Shown piece by piece: positions 24,113 to 31,543 of a stretch of 34,056 nucleotides of DNA. Source of the DNA: Candidatus Tantalella remota (GTDB lineage Bacteria > Omnitrophota > Gorgyraeia > Tantalellales > Tantalellaceae); the NCBI GenBank assembly GCA_030765685.1, contig JAVCCB010000068.1:1-34056 (forward strand), in the 5' to 3' direction. Position 1 is the first letter of the stretch. Every line of letters begins with the position of its first letter. The notes beneath the pieces were generated by a model. That model was not told the DNA's origin. It saw nothing but the letters and a program-made list of their open reading frames with translations, and searched no databases. The position numbers and the translations under genes are program-made.

Positions 24113-24823
24113 ATGCTCATTATCCACGATAACAGATTGCCTCAAGAATATGTTAACGCGCTTCAGCGTGAACTACCCGATGCTGACCTTGTCCCGTTTC
24201 GCGGTGAGGGTGTGTACGAGTCGATACTTTCCCATCCCGACATACATCTTTTCAAACTTGCTGAAGACGCGACCATACACTCACCCGCGGTGGGCGGTGA
24301 CTTCTTAACCATCCTTAGAGGGAGAGGCATAGGTCTCATAAAAGGAGAAGAAAACCCTTTCGGCAAATATCCCGACACAGCAGTTTATAACGCGGTCCGC
24401 GTGGGAGGCGTGCTGCTGCATAATAGTGAACATACCGACGAAAAGATCCTGGAAGAGTGTGCCTCGCGCGGAGTGAAAATAGTCGACGTCAAGCAAGGGT
24501 ATGCTAGATGCTCGGTGATCCCCGTGGGGGCGAGGGGTCTTATTACGTCAGACGGTGGAATAGCTTCCGCAGCGAGTGGGGAAGGGCTTGATGTACTATT
24601 TATATCTTCCGGTGAGATAGAGCTCCCCGGAGAGGAAAACGGGTTCATCGGTGGAGCCTCCGGCACCCTGGCTGATGGTACCGTGGTATTTCTGGGGGAG
24701 ATAGGTTGTCATCCTCAAGGAACAGAGATATCGGATTTTCTGGCTAAATACGATATGGCCAGCATAAGCCTACCAGGTTTGCCGTTATATGACGCGGGCA
24801 CCCTGCTTATATATGACAAATAA
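24113..24823 (+). CDS. DUF6873-like (guanidino-modifying-enzyme fold) protein
   Basis: A 236-residue cytosolic protein without signal or membrane segment. VDVKQGYARCSVIPVGARGLITSDGGIA and ENGFIGGASG match what I remember of the uncharacterised DUF6873 family, assigned a five-bladed GME (guanidino-modifying enzyme) fold. The Cys in GYARCS and acidic or His residues nearby could form a hydrolase or transferase site, but no reaction is known. It starts at ATG 24113 without a Shine-Dalgarno, downstream of element A2 and a heptamer array. It has no obvious partner. Confidence 0.7.
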   Translation: MLIIHDNRLPQEYVNALQRELPDADLVPFRGEGVYESILSHPDIHLFKLAEDATIHSPAVGGDFLTILRGRGIGLIKGEENPFGKYPDTAVYNAVRVGGVLLHNSEHTDEKILEECASRGVKIVDVKQGYARCSVIPVGARGLITSDGGIASAASGEGLDVLFISSGEIELPGEENGFIGGASGTLADGTVVFLGEIGCHPQGTEISDFLAKYDMASISLPGLPLYDAGTLLIYDK

Positions 24824-24930: not shown

Positions 24931-25269
24931 ATGCACGAAGATAAACGTCGATATATGAGGTATAATGTTTTTTTACAGCACTTCAAATGTCTGAACTGTG
25001 ATTCTGAAGATTCCGTTATCGATATTTCCGATATTTCATGTACCGGGTTAGGCATATCAACGACAGACCAGCTTTACTCGGGAGATAAAATGGATCTGGA
25101 AATAATCTTCCCTCAAGATGATGTGCCGATGTTTATCACTGGCGAGATCGCCTGGGCTTACCTTGAAAACAATTCTGAAGGAAGATATACCGCGGGTGTG
25201 AAATTTTCCAAAATAAGTCATTGCGACAAAAAACGTCTGGTAAGGTATATTCAGACCAGTCATGCGTAG
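24931..25269 (+). CDS. Single-domain PilZ protein (c-di-GMP receptor)
   Basis: A 112-residue cytosolic protein. RRYMR near the N-terminus (Arg6-Arg10) is the RxxxR c-di-GMP motif and DISCTGLG the D/NxSxxG motif, so both ligand loops are intact. The beta barrel continues with GDKMDLEIIFP, ITGEIAWAY and YTAGVKFSKIS, and an alpha tail DKKRLVRYIQ. GAGGGAAGGG gives a Shine-Dalgarno-like site before ATG 24931. It stands alone under a near-consensus promoter; no cyclase, phosphodiesterase, pilus or flagellar gene is nearby, so its output is unknown. Confidence 0.9.
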   Translation: MHEDKRRYMRYNVFLQHFKCLNCDSEDSVIDISDISCTGLGISTTDQLYSGDKMDLEIIFPQDDVPMFITGEIAWAYLENNSEGRYTAGVKFSKISHCDKKRLVRYIQTSHA

Positions 25270-25929: not shown

Positions 25930-26679
25930 ATGTCCCGTCATAAAAAGCATTTGCGTATTATCTTTATCATGATCCTACTGGCCATCGTGGTCGCGCCCTT
26001 AAGCATGAGCGCGGAAAAACTCGAGAAGTATATTCCCGACACACAGGCGGCCGAAGAAGGGATGACGTTGTGGCAGATAATAGCCGCCGGAGGCGAGGTG
26101 ATGATAGTACTCGCGCTCATGTCTGTGGCCGCTCTCGGCCTGGTCATATATTATTTTATGACCATCAAACAGGAAGCGCTTGTGCCTCAGGAGTTTCTGG
26201 AGAAGACCATTCTGCTTGTCAAAAATGGAAAATTCGACGAGGCGAAGGAAAAATGTTCCTCGGAGGATAATCTTATCTCAAGAGTTCTTCAGGCCGGTCT
26301 TATGCGCGAGGATAAGGACAAGGTCATAGTTAAGGAAGCTATGCAGGACGCGGGCAGAAGATCCACTGATGATCTGTGGCAGAAGTTGAGCTATCTCGCT
26401 GATGTCGCTGCGATCTCTCCCATGGTGGGGCTTTTGGGAACAGTGCTTGGAATGATACAGGCGTTCAACGTTATAGCTTTTCAGACAGGCGCGGTAAAGC
26501 CCATTTTGCTCGCGAGCGGTATATCCAAAGCTATGGTTACCACGGCTACGGGTCTTATAGTCGCTATACCCTGTATGATATTTTATTCGTTTTTCAAAGG
26601 GCGGGTTCAGGATTGTAACGCGCGCCTTGAAAACATATCGACGGAACTGTTCCACCTTATAACGGACAAAAAAAAATAA
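25930..26679 (+). CDS. exbB: ExbB/TolQ/MotA-family proton channel subunit
   Basis: Forms with ExbD a proton-driven motor in the inner membrane. The 249 residues have an extra N-terminal hydrophobic segment (about 8-28, ending LSMSA) that looks like a cleavable signal. The three usual membrane helices follow (about 48-76, 152-180 and 195-222), with a cytoplasmic stretch KFDEAKEKCSSEDNLISRVLQAG between. SPMVGLLGTVLGMIQAF and GISKAMVTTATGLIVAIPCMIFY are the diagnostic pore helices. GGGGGAG stands before ATG 25930. First gene of the exbB-exbD-TPR-VWA unit. Use of exbB rather than tolQ is by convention only. Confidence 0.9.
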   Translation: MSRHKKHLRIIFIMILLAIVVAPLSMSAEKLEKYIPDTQAAEEGMTLWQIIAAGGEVMIVLALMSVAALGLVIYYFMTIKQEALVPQEFLEKTILLVKNGKFDEAKEKCSSEDNLISRVLQAGLMREDKDKVIVKEAMQDAGRRSTDDLWQKLSYLADVAAISPMVGLLGTVLGMIQAFNVIAFQTGAVKPILLASGISKAMVTTATGLIVAIPCMIFYSFFKGRVQDCNARLENISTELFHLITDKKK

Positions 26680-26701
26680 ACAGCGTGAATTAGGGGATAA
26701 A

Positions 26702-27130
26702 ATGGATTTTACCAGCGGAAAAAGAGCGATAGCCGACAGGCCTACCATACAGATGGCGCCGTTGATAGATATCGTCTTCTTACTTCTCATATTCTTCATG
26801 TCCGCTTCGATATTCTCCCAGCTGGAAACTGAGATCAATATTACTGTTCCTACCGCCAACGAGTCGACCGATATAAAACGCGCTCCAGGAGAGATCATTA
26901 TAAACATTCGTAAGGATGGCATGATCATAGTCAATCAGAGGCAGCTGAGTTATGAGGACCTTGAGCGTATGCTCCGGAGAGTAGCGAGTCTGTATCGTGG
27001 ACAGCCCGTCATAATAAGGGCGGACCAGGAGACTTATCACAAGGATGTCATACGGGTGCTGGACATATGCGCCGGTGTCGATATTTGGAACGTATCCTTT
27101 GCGACGATGAAGGAAAAAAATGCGGATTGA
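26702..27130 (+). CDS. exbD: ExbD/TolR-family proton channel subunit
   Basis: A 142-residue partner of ExbB with one membrane helix. Asp23 in APLIDIVFLLLIFFM is the proton-carrying Asp of the family (Asp25 in E. coli ExbD). The periplasmic domain follows, with IIINIRKDGMIIVNQRQLSYEDLE and PVIIRADQETYHKDVIRVLDIC giving the TolR/ExbD fold. It starts 22 bp behind exbB with a GGGGA ribosome site, and its 3' end overlaps the TPR gene by 11 bp, pointing to coupled translation. Confidence 0.93.
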   Translation: MDFTSGKRAIADRPTIQMAPLIDIVFLLLIFFMSASIFSQLETEINITVPTANESTDIKRAPGEIIINIRKDGMIIVNQRQLSYEDLERMLRRVASLYRGQPVIIRADQETYHKDVIRVLDICAGVDIWNVSFATMKEKNAD

Positions 27131-29501
27131 CCGGACCTTTTTTTACAAAAACATAATGCGTACTGTAAGACTCGCGCTGGCCGCGGCAGTCTTTTTCACG
27201 GTGTGTACCGCAGCGTATTCCCAGGAAGAATCCACGGGTAAAGAAGTTGAAGAATTTGATTTTGCCAACGGTCTTTTTGCCAGGGGCATGTATGACATGG
27301 CGATCTCGGGATACGGAGATTTTATTAAAAAATATCCGGACAGCGCGTACACGAAAATAGCCGAATTCCGGATAGGGGAATGTTATTTCCTGGACGGAAA
27401 GTATGACGAGGCGCTTAACAGGTTCAATGCTTTTCTCAAGGGCGGTTATTCCGATGAACTCGCGGGCAGGGCTCTTCTCAGGAAAGGGCAGATCTTCTAC
27501 ATGAAGAAAGATTACCCGGCCGCTGAGAAAATATTGACTTCTCTCGCGTCCAGGGGGGGCAATGAGGGTGCCGCCGGCCCGGCCAGATATTACCTTTCGG
27601 GGATATACTTCAAGCAGGGGGACTATACCACTTCAAAAAAGATGCTCGAGCGTCTTTTGTTCGATAATCCCAAAGGCGAATATTCATCGTTCGCGCACCT
27701 GAGTCTTGGAGACATATACATAAAGATGGGCAGTGACGATAAGGCGGCGGAGGAGTATCGCGAAGCGGCCATCTCCGCCGCGAGTAAAAGCCTGGCGGAT
27801 GAGGCGTATGCCAGGGCCGGAGCCGCTTTTTACCGCGCCGGAAAATATAAAAGGGCGAAAGCACTTTACAGTAAAATACTTGATTCTGCGGAGCCTTCAG
27901 ATTCTTATGATAGCGCTGCGCTGGGGCTGTTGTCGTCCCTTTATAAAGGCGGGGAATACAAGAGGATAACGGAAGAGTCGGGTGGCATCCTTCCCAGGAT
28001 GGCTTCACCCGCATCGAAGGCACAGGCTCTTTTTATCATAGGCAACAGTTATTTTCAGCAGAATATGTTTGCCGAGGCGGAAACGGCCTATTCCGAAGGC
28101 GCGGAGAAATATCCCGATACGGAATACGGGATAAAATCCCGTCTTAACGTATGCTGGACGCTGTATAAACTGGGCAGGAACGAAGAATGCCTGCGTGAAG
28201 TTGCCGCGTATATGGTCGCCGCGGAAGATGCCGTTGACGAAGCCCTGTACATCAAGGCGAAAGCGCTTACGGCGATGGGACGCACTACGGAGGCTCTTGA
28301 GGCCTACAGGCGCATCATGGATGAGTTTAAGGATTCAAACTTGCGTAAAGAGGCCTTGTATGAGATGGGCTGGGCGGCGGAACAGGCGGGATTTTCTGAG
28401 GACGCGGTAAGGGATTTTCGCGCCTTCGCGGAAGAGTATCCCGACGATGAAAGAAGTCCGTCGGTTCTTTTGAAGGCAGCGCAGGAGAGCTTCAAGGCTG
28501 AAGACTATCCCACAGCGGAAAAATATTACAATCTGTTCCTTGAAAAATATTCTGAAAACTCCCTGCGGGAAAATGTCATGTACCAGCTCGCGGGCGCTTA
28601 TCAGGAGCAGGGTATGTACGATAAGGCCATAAATGCCTATGAGGAACTGGTCCGGGATTTTCCGGAGTCAAAGGTGCGGGAGCCTGCCGTTTACTGGATG
28701 GGAAGGGCTTATCAGAATCTGGAAAAATGGAACCAGGCCATCAAGTCGTTCACGGAGCTCGTTTCTGACGAAAAAGGAGCTTATTATGCCAGGGGGATGG
28801 AGTCGGTAGCTTTCTGCTATTTTCAAATGGGGATGCATGATAAAGCGGCCGAAAAATATTATGAGCTTATCAAACGGGATCCTAAATATAAACTCCCCGA
28901 CGGCGTATACCGCTGGGTAGCGGATTTTTATCTTACCGACGGGCAGAATGAAAGATCCCTGGCGATGCTCGGCGCGTTGGCGAAGAACTATCCCGACATA
29001 GCCGCGAGCGGGGAAATTTCTTTCATGTTCGGTGAAAACTATTACAACACCGAAGATGTTGATAAGGCTATCAAATATTTTACCGAAGCCGTAAGTAAGC
29101 AGACGCCGTCGCCGTATATGGAGAGGGCATATCTGGGTCTGGGCAGGGCGTATTTTTCCAAGGGAGATTACAGCGAGTCACTTTCGTTTCTCAACAAGGC
29201 TCTGGAGGGCAATAAGGATAACCGTACCGGAGCCAATATAAGGTTCGAGATAGGGAACGTGAACGCCCGCATGATGAATTTTGAGGAGGCGGCTAAGCAG
29301 TACATGATGGTGGCCATACTCTACGAAGACAAAGATATATGTCCCAGGGCGCTTTACCAGGCCGGTGAATCGTTCGAAAAAGCGGGGGACCGACCCAAAG
29401 CATTGGAAGTCTTCCGGGAGCTTATAGAAAGATACCCGGAGAACGAAATGTCACAAAAAGCTTCCCAACAGATCCAACGGATAGAGAATGAACTGGAATA
29501 A
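27120..29501 (+). CDS. Large periplasmic TPR protein
   Basis: A 793-residue protein with a Sec signal (hydrophobic 18-34, ending TAAYS) and then tetratricopeptide repeats to the end. Many units are of the YbgF/BamD-like type 'A...Y..F...YPDS' (e.g. AISGYGDFIKKYPDSAY, AEKYYNLFLEKYSENS, AINAYEELVRDFPES, ALEVFRELIERYPENE). It is a solenoid for binding other proteins, placed in the periplasm. In Tol systems the gene in this position (CpoB/YbgF) links the motor to cell-wall synthesis. ATG 27120 has AAGGA upstream and overlaps exbD; Met at 27156 lacks a ribosome site. The last 14 bp overlap the VWA gene. Confidence 0.88.
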   Translation: MRIDRTFFYKNIMRTVRLALAAAVFFTVCTAAYSQEESTGKEVEEFDFANGLFARGMYDMAISGYGDFIKKYPDSAYTKIAEFRIGECYFLDGKYDEALNRFNAFLKGGYSDELAGRALLRKGQIFYMKKDYPAAEKILTSLASRGGNEGAAGPARYYLSGIYFKQGDYTTSKKMLERLLFDNPKGEYSSFAHLSLGDIYIKMGSDDKAAEEYREAAISAASKSLADEAYARAGAAFYRAGKYKRAKALYSKILDSAEPSDSYDSAALGLLSSLYKGGEYKRITEESGGILPRMASPASKAQALFIIGNSYFQQNMFAEAETAYSEGAEKYPDTEYGIKSRLNVCWTLYKLGRNEECLREVAAYMVAAEDAVDEALYIKAKALTAMGRTTEALEAYRRIMDEFKDSNLRKEALYEMGWAAEQAGFSEDAVRDFRAFAEEYPDDERSPSVLLKAAQESFKAEDYPTAEKYYNLFLEKYSENSLRENVMYQLAGAYQEQGMYDKAINAYEELVRDFPESKVREPAVYWMGRAYQNLEKWNQAIKSFTELVSDEKGAYYARGMESVAFCYFQMGMHDKAAEKYYELIKRDPKYKLPDGVYRWVADFYLTDGQNERSLAMLGALAKNYPDIAASGEISFMFGENYYNTEDVDKAIKYFTEAVSKQTPSPYMERAYLGLGRAYFSKGDYSESLSFLNKALEGNKDNRTGANIRFEIGNVNARMMNFEEAAKQYMMVAILYEDKDICPRALYQAGESFEKAGDRPKALEVFRELIERYPENEMSQKASQQIQRIENELE

Positions 29502-31146
29502 GCCCGTAATCCTAGCGATATTCATTTCATTGATCGTGCACGCTGTGTTTTTGGCCGCGGCGCCGCATATGGTCATGTCGGGGATGTGGCAGGTGGTCGA
29601 TCAGACGCGGAAGATGTTCCGGATAAGGGATGTCGACAAGGAAACCGCGGACGTTTCTCTTTTTCAGGAAACCCGTCCGCGCCCGTCTTCGGTAAAGATG
29701 ACACAGCAGGTCTCGAGGCTCAAGGGCGTGAATTTTAAAAGCATGATGCTTGAGGAAAAGCCAAAAGAGGAGATGTCTCTTGAAATTAAGAAAAGGGATA
29801 TGATAAAAGAACCCGTGAACGAAGTCATCCCCGATACGAACCCCCTTGATATGATGAAGTCCGAAGCTGAACGGGCGAAAAAAGAAGTAACTCCCGACAA
29901 GCGGTCACTGGCTGACCGGCTTTTAACGGAAGATCTGGTGGACAATACGGTGAATTCCGATGCGAGCGACAGGGAGATGTCACATGAACCCGGACAGAGG
30001 TCTTTTGACAGATTCGCTGATGGTCTGGGAGATTGGGAAAGTGCGTCGCACGCGGCATACGGTCCGGGTGAAGGCGATATGTCCGCGATACAGGCGGGCG
30101 CCCGTCTTGGGGAGTATGAGGATATAGGGGAGCATCTGGACGTCCGGCTGAAGACCTATGAAGACCCGGTCACAGGGGAAAAATATTTTGAGATACTCAT
30201 AAGCGTAAAAGAAGGAAGCCGCCTGGAAGTCATTCCCAAGGAGATAATTTTTCTTGTGGATTCGTCGAAAAGTATTACCGAAGAAAAACTGGCGTACATA
30301 AAAGAAGGCCTGCTGGATTCCATCAAAAGCCTTAATCCGGAAGATCGGTTCAATTTGGTCGCCTTCAGGGGGAATCTGGTAAAATACGAACCGTATCCGG
30401 TAAAGGTCTCGGAGAGGATGCTGAAGAAAGCCAGGCCATTTATCAACCAAATGGAGGCGGTAGGCCAGACAGACGTCGAGAACGCCCTTCTGGAGATAAT
30501 AGAGGAGCCTGTCCAATTCTATCCGTCATATATAGTCCTTATCACTGACGGCAGGCCTACCACGGGCGTTATCTCATCCAGAGAGATCATACAGCAGATA
30601 ACAAGGAGAAACAATATGCGCCGCCCGATATTCTGTTTCGGGGGAGGACGGCGGGTAAACAGGTATCTTCTGGATTTTATATCATACCAGAACAGGGCGT
30701 GGAGCCGTTTCGCGGAGACCACGTATGATATCAGGGACGACTTTGATGGATTTTATAACCAGCTCAAGGATCCGCTGCTTCTGAATGTGAGGTACAGGAT
30801 GCTGGGGTTGTCCACCTCGGAGATGTATCCGAAATATCTTTCAGACTTTTATTACAACAGGCCTTTTACGCTGTACGGCCGTTTTAACAATGAAGACGCT
30901 TTTTCCATGCAGCTTCTTGGGGAGATAAACGGCATGACCAAGGAACTTATTTTTGAAAAAGCGCTGAGTAAAGCCGAGCCTGGGGATGAGAGTATCGCCA
31001 GAGAATGGGCGTTCAGGAAAATATATTATCTTATCAGCCGGATCACTATGGGCAGGGGGGATTCCGGGAGGCTGAGAGATGAGATAGACAGACTGAGCCA
31101 GAAATATAACATAAAGACACCTTATGATATAGAGGACGCGGACTAG
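29488..31146 (+). CDS. TonB-like anchored VWA protein (inter-alpha-trypsin-inhibitor-like)
   Basis: A 552-residue protein in the position of TonB/TolA. It has a single N-terminal helix (6-26) with Ser14-xxx-His18, the SxxxH motif that lets TonB and TolA respond to ExbBD/TolQR. A charged, flexible stretch (about 40-215) spans part of the periplasm. The von Willebrand A domain follows, with an intact MIDAS: Asp258-x-Ser260-x-Ser262, Thr328 and Asp354 (ITDGRPTTG). The C-terminal part (about 415-552: PFTLYGRFNNED, REWAFRKIYYLI, YNIKTPYDIED) resembles the segment after the VWA domain in inter-alpha-trypsin inhibitor heavy chains and bacterial VIT-VWA proteins. No VIT domain or TonB C-terminal domain is seen. 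It overlaps the TPR gene by 14 bp. Confidence 0.85.
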   Translation: MNWNKPVILAIFISLIVHAVFLAAAPHMVMSGMWQVVDQTRKMFRIRDVDKETADVSLFQETRPRPSSVKMTQQVSRLKGVNFKSMMLEEKPKEEMSLEIKKRDMIKEPVNEVIPDTNPLDMMKSEAERAKKEVTPDKRSLADRLLTEDLVDNTVNSDASDREMSHEPGQRSFDRFADGLGDWESASHAAYGPGEGDMSAIQAGARLGEYEDIGEHLDVRLKTYEDPVTGEKYFEILISVKEGSRLEVIPKEIIFLVDSSKSITEEKLAYIKEGLLDSIKSLNPEDRFNLVAFRGNLVKYEPYPVKVSERMLKKARPFINQMEAVGQTDVENALLEIIEEPVQFYPSYIVLITDGRPTTGVISSREIIQQITRRNNMRRPIFCFGGGRRVNRYLLDFISYQNRAWSRFAETTYDIRDDFDGFYNQLKDPLLLNVRYRMLGLSTSEMYPKYLSDFYYNRPFTLYGRFNNEDAFSMQLLGEINGMTKELIFEKALSKAEPGDESIAREWAFRKIYYLISRITMGRGDSGRLRDEIDRLSQKYNIKTPYDIEDAD

Positions 31147-31165
31147 GGGAGACTGAAGGAGCAGC

Positions 31166-31543
31166 ATGAACAAGACAGATGAAGAGACCAGGGAAAAAGA
31201 ACAAGAGCTGGAAGCGGAGCTGCGAAGTTTTGAGAAGGATCGGGATAATATAAGACGTATCGTCGGGCGCCTGGGCGGTCTACCAACGGGGAAGGCCCGC
31301 ATTGTGAACGTAATTTTCATAATCCTTGTCCTTGCCGCGTTCGCGGGGTCCATAGTATGGGGCGGCCGTATGAGGTTTTTTATGATAGAGGTAGGTATCT
31401 TTCTTCTGTCGATAAAACTTATATATTTTCTCGAATCCTATATGCGTCTTAACCATTTTCAGTTCTGGATACTCTCGTCGCTGGAATGGCGGCTGGATAA
31501 GATCGATAAGAAATTAAAGGAAATGACTAAGGAGGAAAAGTAG
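31166..31543 (+). CDS. Small membrane protein with coiled-coil ends, unknown function
   Basis: A 125-residue protein I cannot place in a family. Residues 1-35 are a charged coiled-coil (EETREKEQELEAELRSFEKD), 46-65 and 70-90 are membrane helices, and 100-125 is a second amphipathic helix (LEWRLDKIDKKLKEMTKEEK). GAAGGAG stands 5 nt before the ATG and the gene is 19 bp behind the VWA gene, so it belongs to the same operon. It may be an accessory subunit or assembly factor of the ExbBD-VWA complex, inferred from position only. Confidence 0.7.
   Translation: MNKTDEETREKEQELEAELRSFEKDRDNIRRIVGRLGGLPTGKARIVNVIFIILVLAAFAGSIVWGGRMRFFMIEVGIFLLSIKLIYFLESYMRLNHFQFWILSSLEWRLDKIDKKLKEMTKEEK

Follow-up and report, generated by a model that had tools for sequence, protein, structure and literature searches.

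It is likely that an operon in the window (the whole stretch of 34,056 nucleotides that was analysed, which makes up one entire contig of a Candidatus Omnitrophota MAG with 96 contigs and 2.03 Mb) specifies a proton-driven ExbB-ExbD motor that works with an arm of its own, a membrane-anchored VWA protein that transmits force in place of the usual TonB or TolA. The preliminary description of this DNA had put the VWA protein in the place of TonB or TolA on this ExbBD pair, and that placement has good support from an S-x3-H helix, a motor box at TonB-like spacing, a gene order shared by two phyla, an ExbB clade of its own and covariation at the residues where TonB is known to touch ExbB.

The operon has a core of four genes

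The ORF list contains five + strand ORFs and agrees with the preliminary description on their coordinates and on the overlaps of 11 bp (exbD/TPR) and 14 bp (TPR/VWA):

25930..26679, + strand: exbB/tolQ-like motor ring subunit, 249 aa (Pfam PF01618 MotA_ExbB, 2e-32; conservation; E. coli ExbB/TolQ alignment; dedicated clade)
26702..27130, + strand: exbD/tolR-like motor axle, 142 aa (Pfam PF02472 ExbD, 8e-27; D23 in 22/22)
27120..29501, + strand: large periplasmic TPR protein, 793 aa (Pfam/NCBIfam; N-termini of relatives)
29488..31146, + strand: probable VWA force-transducer arm, 552 aa (Pfam VWA_3, 8e-17; AF2; alignment of relatives)
31166..31543, + strand: small two-helix membrane protein, an occasional neighbour outside the core (seen in 4 loci; without family match)

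ExbB begins with a signal-like extension, and the proton-carrying Asp23 of ExbD sits within APLIDIVFLLLIFF. The TPR protein starts with a signal peptide that has no lipobox and carries at least 10 TPRs by Pfam, with YbgF/CpoB- and BamD-like repeats. The two-helix protein has no family match in Pfam, NCBIfam or PHROGs; its gene is found in only four loci (the window, L022, L023 and L025), all of the window's own family, and is absent elsewhere. Since it is confined to these four loci we rejected it as a component of the system, so that of the five-gene system proposed earlier the four core genes remain: exbB, exbD, TPR and VWA are the core of the operon.

Upstream of exbB the window holds a PilZ-domain gene (24931-25269), and similar short genes lie near the operon in L022, L025, L027 and L058, which is possibly a link to c-di-GMP. 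A DUF6873 protein (1.2e-60) is encoded further upstream (24113-24823). In the neighbourhoods of the relatives we found no conserved outer-membrane partner adjoining the operon.

The VWA protein is built like TonB and TolA

The VWA protein has a transmembrane helix (residues 4-27) carrying S14-x3-H18, followed by a motor box (D-box) strand, F44-R-I-R-D-V49, and a disordered linker of ~185 residues that leads to the head. In 29 aligned arms the part ahead of the head has only three positions conserved at 90% or more, S14 (27/29), H18 (29/29) and F44 (28/29), and His occupies position 18 in all 26 Omnitrophota arms. The leucine and the second serine of the SHLS motif are not kept among the arms, and the motor box follows the short hydrophobic pattern F44-x-I/L/V-x-x-V at nearly constant spacing. 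The corresponding residues of the known arms, S16/H20 of TonB and S18/H22 of TolA, are the positions that touch ExbB and TolQ (PMC12215075), and the D-box of E. coli TonB, residues 46-49, extends the ExbD dimer by one strand (PMC10907165). The distance of ~30 residues between S14 and F44 is alike in E. coli TonB (S16/H20 versus D-box 46-49). AlphaFold2, run on the arm with 29 relatives, likewise gives a transmembrane helix and a disordered linker, with pLDDT below 50 across most of residues 41-206. Pfam finds no TonB_C domain in the VWA protein; its anatomy, helix, motor box, linker and globular head, is of the TonB/TolA type.

The head resembles inter-alpha-inhibitor heavy chains

The predicted head (~210-545, pLDDT mostly above 90) consists of a beta-sandwich, an inserted VWA domain with a MIDAS, and C-terminal helices. 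Its closest PDB match by Foldseek is inter-alpha-inhibitor heavy chain 1 (6.5e-24), and a profile search against the PDB returned ITIH4 (2.5e-41) and ITIH1 (7.8e-40). The MIDAS residues, D258-x-S260-x-S262, T328 and D354, are complete in 77 of 78 arms. Sequence comparison and the structural model thus support, as a prediction, an inter-alpha-inhibitor heavy chain fold with an intact MIDAS metal site. E. coli YfbK aligns to the arm head across the VWA core only, whereas in VIT-VWA/ITIH proteins (the bacterial 'marine sortase target' proteins and ITIH1) the whole head of ~330 residues is homologous to that of the arm; the secreted bacterial VIT-VWA protein L034 matches it over 332 residues at 31% identity. 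In contrast to these proteins the arm has neither a VIT domain nor a signal peptide and is held by a TonB-type membrane anchor. The S-x3-H helix is absent from 18 secreted VIT-VWA-type proteins of Omnitrophota and Hydrogenedentota, and no ExbBD genes adjoin them within the stretches fetched. In a tree the arm heads form a clade separate from the VIT-VWA-type heads (support 100/99); a single further sequence, L239, groups with the arm heads, and it too carries such a helix (S-F-L-I-H). A segment of a Pontibacter plasmid protein annotated as a SusC/RagA TonB-linked outer-membrane protein (L128:3200-7894) also resembles the arm head (24.5%); here a Ton system has its VWA module on the outer-membrane side.

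The gene order is kept in two phyla

A single-sequence scan of genome contigs returned nothing; an alignment-based scan succeeded. The genomes all belong to uncultured lineages and are mostly MAGs. The A2 profile matched 35 of the 285 Omnitrophota genomes (~30 arm-type) and 63 of the 68 Hydrogenedentota genomes (~60 arm-type, judged by E-value). The preliminary description had proposed a search for its gene order in other genomes, and the order exbB-exbD-TPR-VWA is indeed kept in 19 Omnitrophota loci and in 43 of the 44 Hydrogenedentota loci that have all four genes, so that 62 of 63 four-gene loci in the two phyla together share it. In most loci the TPR gene overlaps with, or lies directly against, that of the arm.

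Two loci depart from this arrangement. In G003 a TPR-VWA pair (L026, G003:C10) follows secA and an Lnt-like gene without adjacent exbBD, and the two other ExbBs of this genome both fall outside the VWA clade. The second is the divergent L239 (2169-3923), an orphan arm of an Omnitrophota family, with a MIDAS head and no motor genes beside it. Separately, an arm-type VWA head was seen in a MAG labelled Deltaproteobacteria (L059:7082-7885), where exbBD was not detected in the upstream 7 kb; this locus may be mislabelled or broken.

The motor retains its working residues and forms its own clade

All 22 sequences compared have Asp23 in ExbD and the pore threonines Thr171 and Thr205 in ExbB. These residues bear on the direction in which the system works, as the arm could also be a sensor of tension or ligand, in which ligand binding at the VWA head would put the arm under tension and so gate ExbBD, information passing inward with no work done on the ligand. 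The anatomy of the arm would fit such a sensor equally, and integrins use the MIDAS fold for regulated binding. Tension on the TonB transmembrane helix itself has, moreover, been proposed to gate ExbB (PMC12215075). However, ExbD and ExbB retain the full set of Asp and Thr residues expected of a working motor, and the neighbourhoods of the relatives contain no conserved signalling partner adjoining the operon; we consider a sensor unlikely.

In a tree of 43 ExbB sequences the 25 VWA-linked ones, from both phyla, form one clade (100/99), and the 18 other ExbBs from the searched Omnitrophota genomes, including the TonB-linked ones of the same genomes, lie outside it. The window's genome itself has a paralogous operon, TPR-exbB-exbD-TonB-like (L020, G000:C62:508-4774), which is widespread in the family. 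Its TonB-like protein of 240 aa has an S-L-G-I-H helix and a degenerate TonB_C; at E 0.001 the genome gave no TonB_C match, the C62 protein reaching only a sub-threshold 0.059. This operon is probably the resident Tol/Ton system. The earlier view that the VWA protein is the only candidate arm needs a correction, as the proposed search for a separate tonB or tolA does turn up a TonB-like protein in the genome, albeit one that has a motor in its own TPR-exbB-exbD-tonB operon.

That protein, with its S-x3-H helix, could in principle be the partner of the window's ExbBD, the VWA protein being an accessory like TtpC or CpoB. We regard this as highly improbable, as the ExbB encoded beside this TonB is of a different clade, and G074, a genome that is 95% complete, has the VWA-linked type as its sole ExbB. 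The VWA-linked clade and the separate operon with tonB together indicate that the VWA arm and the TonB arm each own a motor. The tree and the gene neighbourhoods support the view that the window's ExbBD motor would be dedicated to the VWA arm.

Arm and motor covary at the predicted contact

While Omnitrophota arms are uniform at position 18, the 56 Hydrogenedentota arms carry 27 His, 28 Tyr and 1 Gln there, and in the same genomes ExbB 65/66 shifts from Ser-Val/Ile to Gly-Phe. Across 36 dereplicated genomes the pair arm 18/ExbB 65 is His/Ser in 12, non-His/Gly in 20, His/Gly in 3 and non-His/Ala in 1. In this set arm residue 18 covaries best with ExbB 65 and next best with ExbB 66, out of 241 ExbB columns; seen from ExbB 65, arm residue 18 comes first of 524 arm columns. 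ExbB S65 aligns with Ser34 of E. coli ExbB and Ser28 of TolQ, and the contacts seen are TonB His20/ExbB Ser34, by cryo-EM, and TolA His22/TolQ Ser28 (PMC12215075). The covarying pair thus coincides with the TonB His20/ExbB Ser34 contact; the covarying columns were spotted first and the contact residues looked up afterwards. The His-to-Tyr/Ser-to-Gly change tracks clades, and an independent-pairs test on supported branches was not significant, with only 2 pairs, too few for significance. As all columns share one tree, the reciprocal rank carries more weight. We give about even chances to the interpretation that part of the Hydrogenedentota swapped the arm's essential TonB/TolA-type His and the ExbB Ser jointly for Tyr and Gly (with the adjacent Phe), giving a separate motor-arm class on the common motor with the inter-alpha-inhibitor-type head as the tool at its far end.

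The covariation also bears on whether arm and motor are coupled at all. BatA/B and BatC resemble the pairing of VWA and TPR proteins, and the operon could hold a Bat-like module to which ExbBD is a mere genetic neighbour, the VWA protein being mechanically uncoupled; the TPR-VWA pair without exbBD in G003 and the orphan arm L239 would suit this. Such a reading is very unlikely, however, given that conservation in the N-terminal half of the arm centres on its motor-binding residues, that linkage to exbBD is in one order in nearly every four-gene locus, and that ExbB covaries with the arm where they would touch.

Proposed mechanism and relation to known systems

For a motor-driven arm, the sequences support a picture in which the TonB/TolA-type helix would dock on ExbB, at Ser65 of its first membrane helix, and the motor-box strand would lie directly beyond the membrane, in the position at which TonB and TolA meet ExbD and TolR, with the long disordered linker bearing the globular MIDAS head. 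Proton flow through ExbBD would then pull or turn the arm, and the head would pass the force to a protein ligand held via the MIDAS metal. This ligand might be the periplasmic TPR protein of the same operon, or a protein of the outer membrane or cell wall that the TPR protein presents; from gene order the TPR protein is the most likely partner, because its gene so often overlaps or abuts that of the arm. The adhesive head and the scaffolding TPR protein of the preliminary description are putative roles.

The operon shares with ExbBD-TonB and TolQR-TolA the motor genes, the S-x3-H helix, the motor box, the linker and a globular periplasmic head, but where those arms end in a TonB/TolA C-terminal domain, this one has a MIDAS VWA domain as its head. 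It shares with Bat (BatA/BatB VWA, BatC TPR) a membrane VWA protein and a TPR partner, but has an ExbBD motor, and no MoxR ATPase or BatD occurs among the immediate Pfam-scanned neighbours.

The preliminary description held that the system recalls Tol-Pal and Bat without matching either; it does match a kind already published, the vWA force transducers. Such arms, encoded with TPR and TolQR genes, were reported by Williams-Jones et al. (2025, Mol Biol Evol msaf138, PMC12204202), who proposed that they are pmf-driven and likened their fold to E. coli YfbK. In that account TPR genes, TolQ and a heterologous TolR pair are 'often' adjacent, in PVC, and Omnitrophota and Hydrogenedentota are not named (PMC12204202). 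Both have a transmembrane helix with an SHLS-type His, a motor box, a disordered linker, a vWA head, and adjacent motor and TPR genes, and by this anatomy the operon belongs with the Williams-Jones class. It differs in having a single exbD instead of a heterologous pair, in its order exbB-exbD-TPR-VWA, in a linker of ~185-220 residues compared with the ~100 reported, and, going by the published description, in a head of the inter-alpha-inhibitor type as against the YfbK-likened fold.

The vWA force-transducer class itself, first described in 2025, is thus already known; new are the inter-alpha-inhibitor-type head, the single ExbD, the two further phyla and the putative dock changed from His/Ser to Tyr/Gly. 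The published case for motor-driven vWA arms consists of structure prediction and synteny, to which the covariation of arm 18 and ExbB 65 adds independent evidence, though not phylogeny-corrected, and it offers a two-residue swap that is testable in E. coli. With ~60 of 68 Hydrogenedentota genomes carrying it, the system probably belongs to the core envelope machinery of that phylum, and one proton motor would appear to bear quite different tools.
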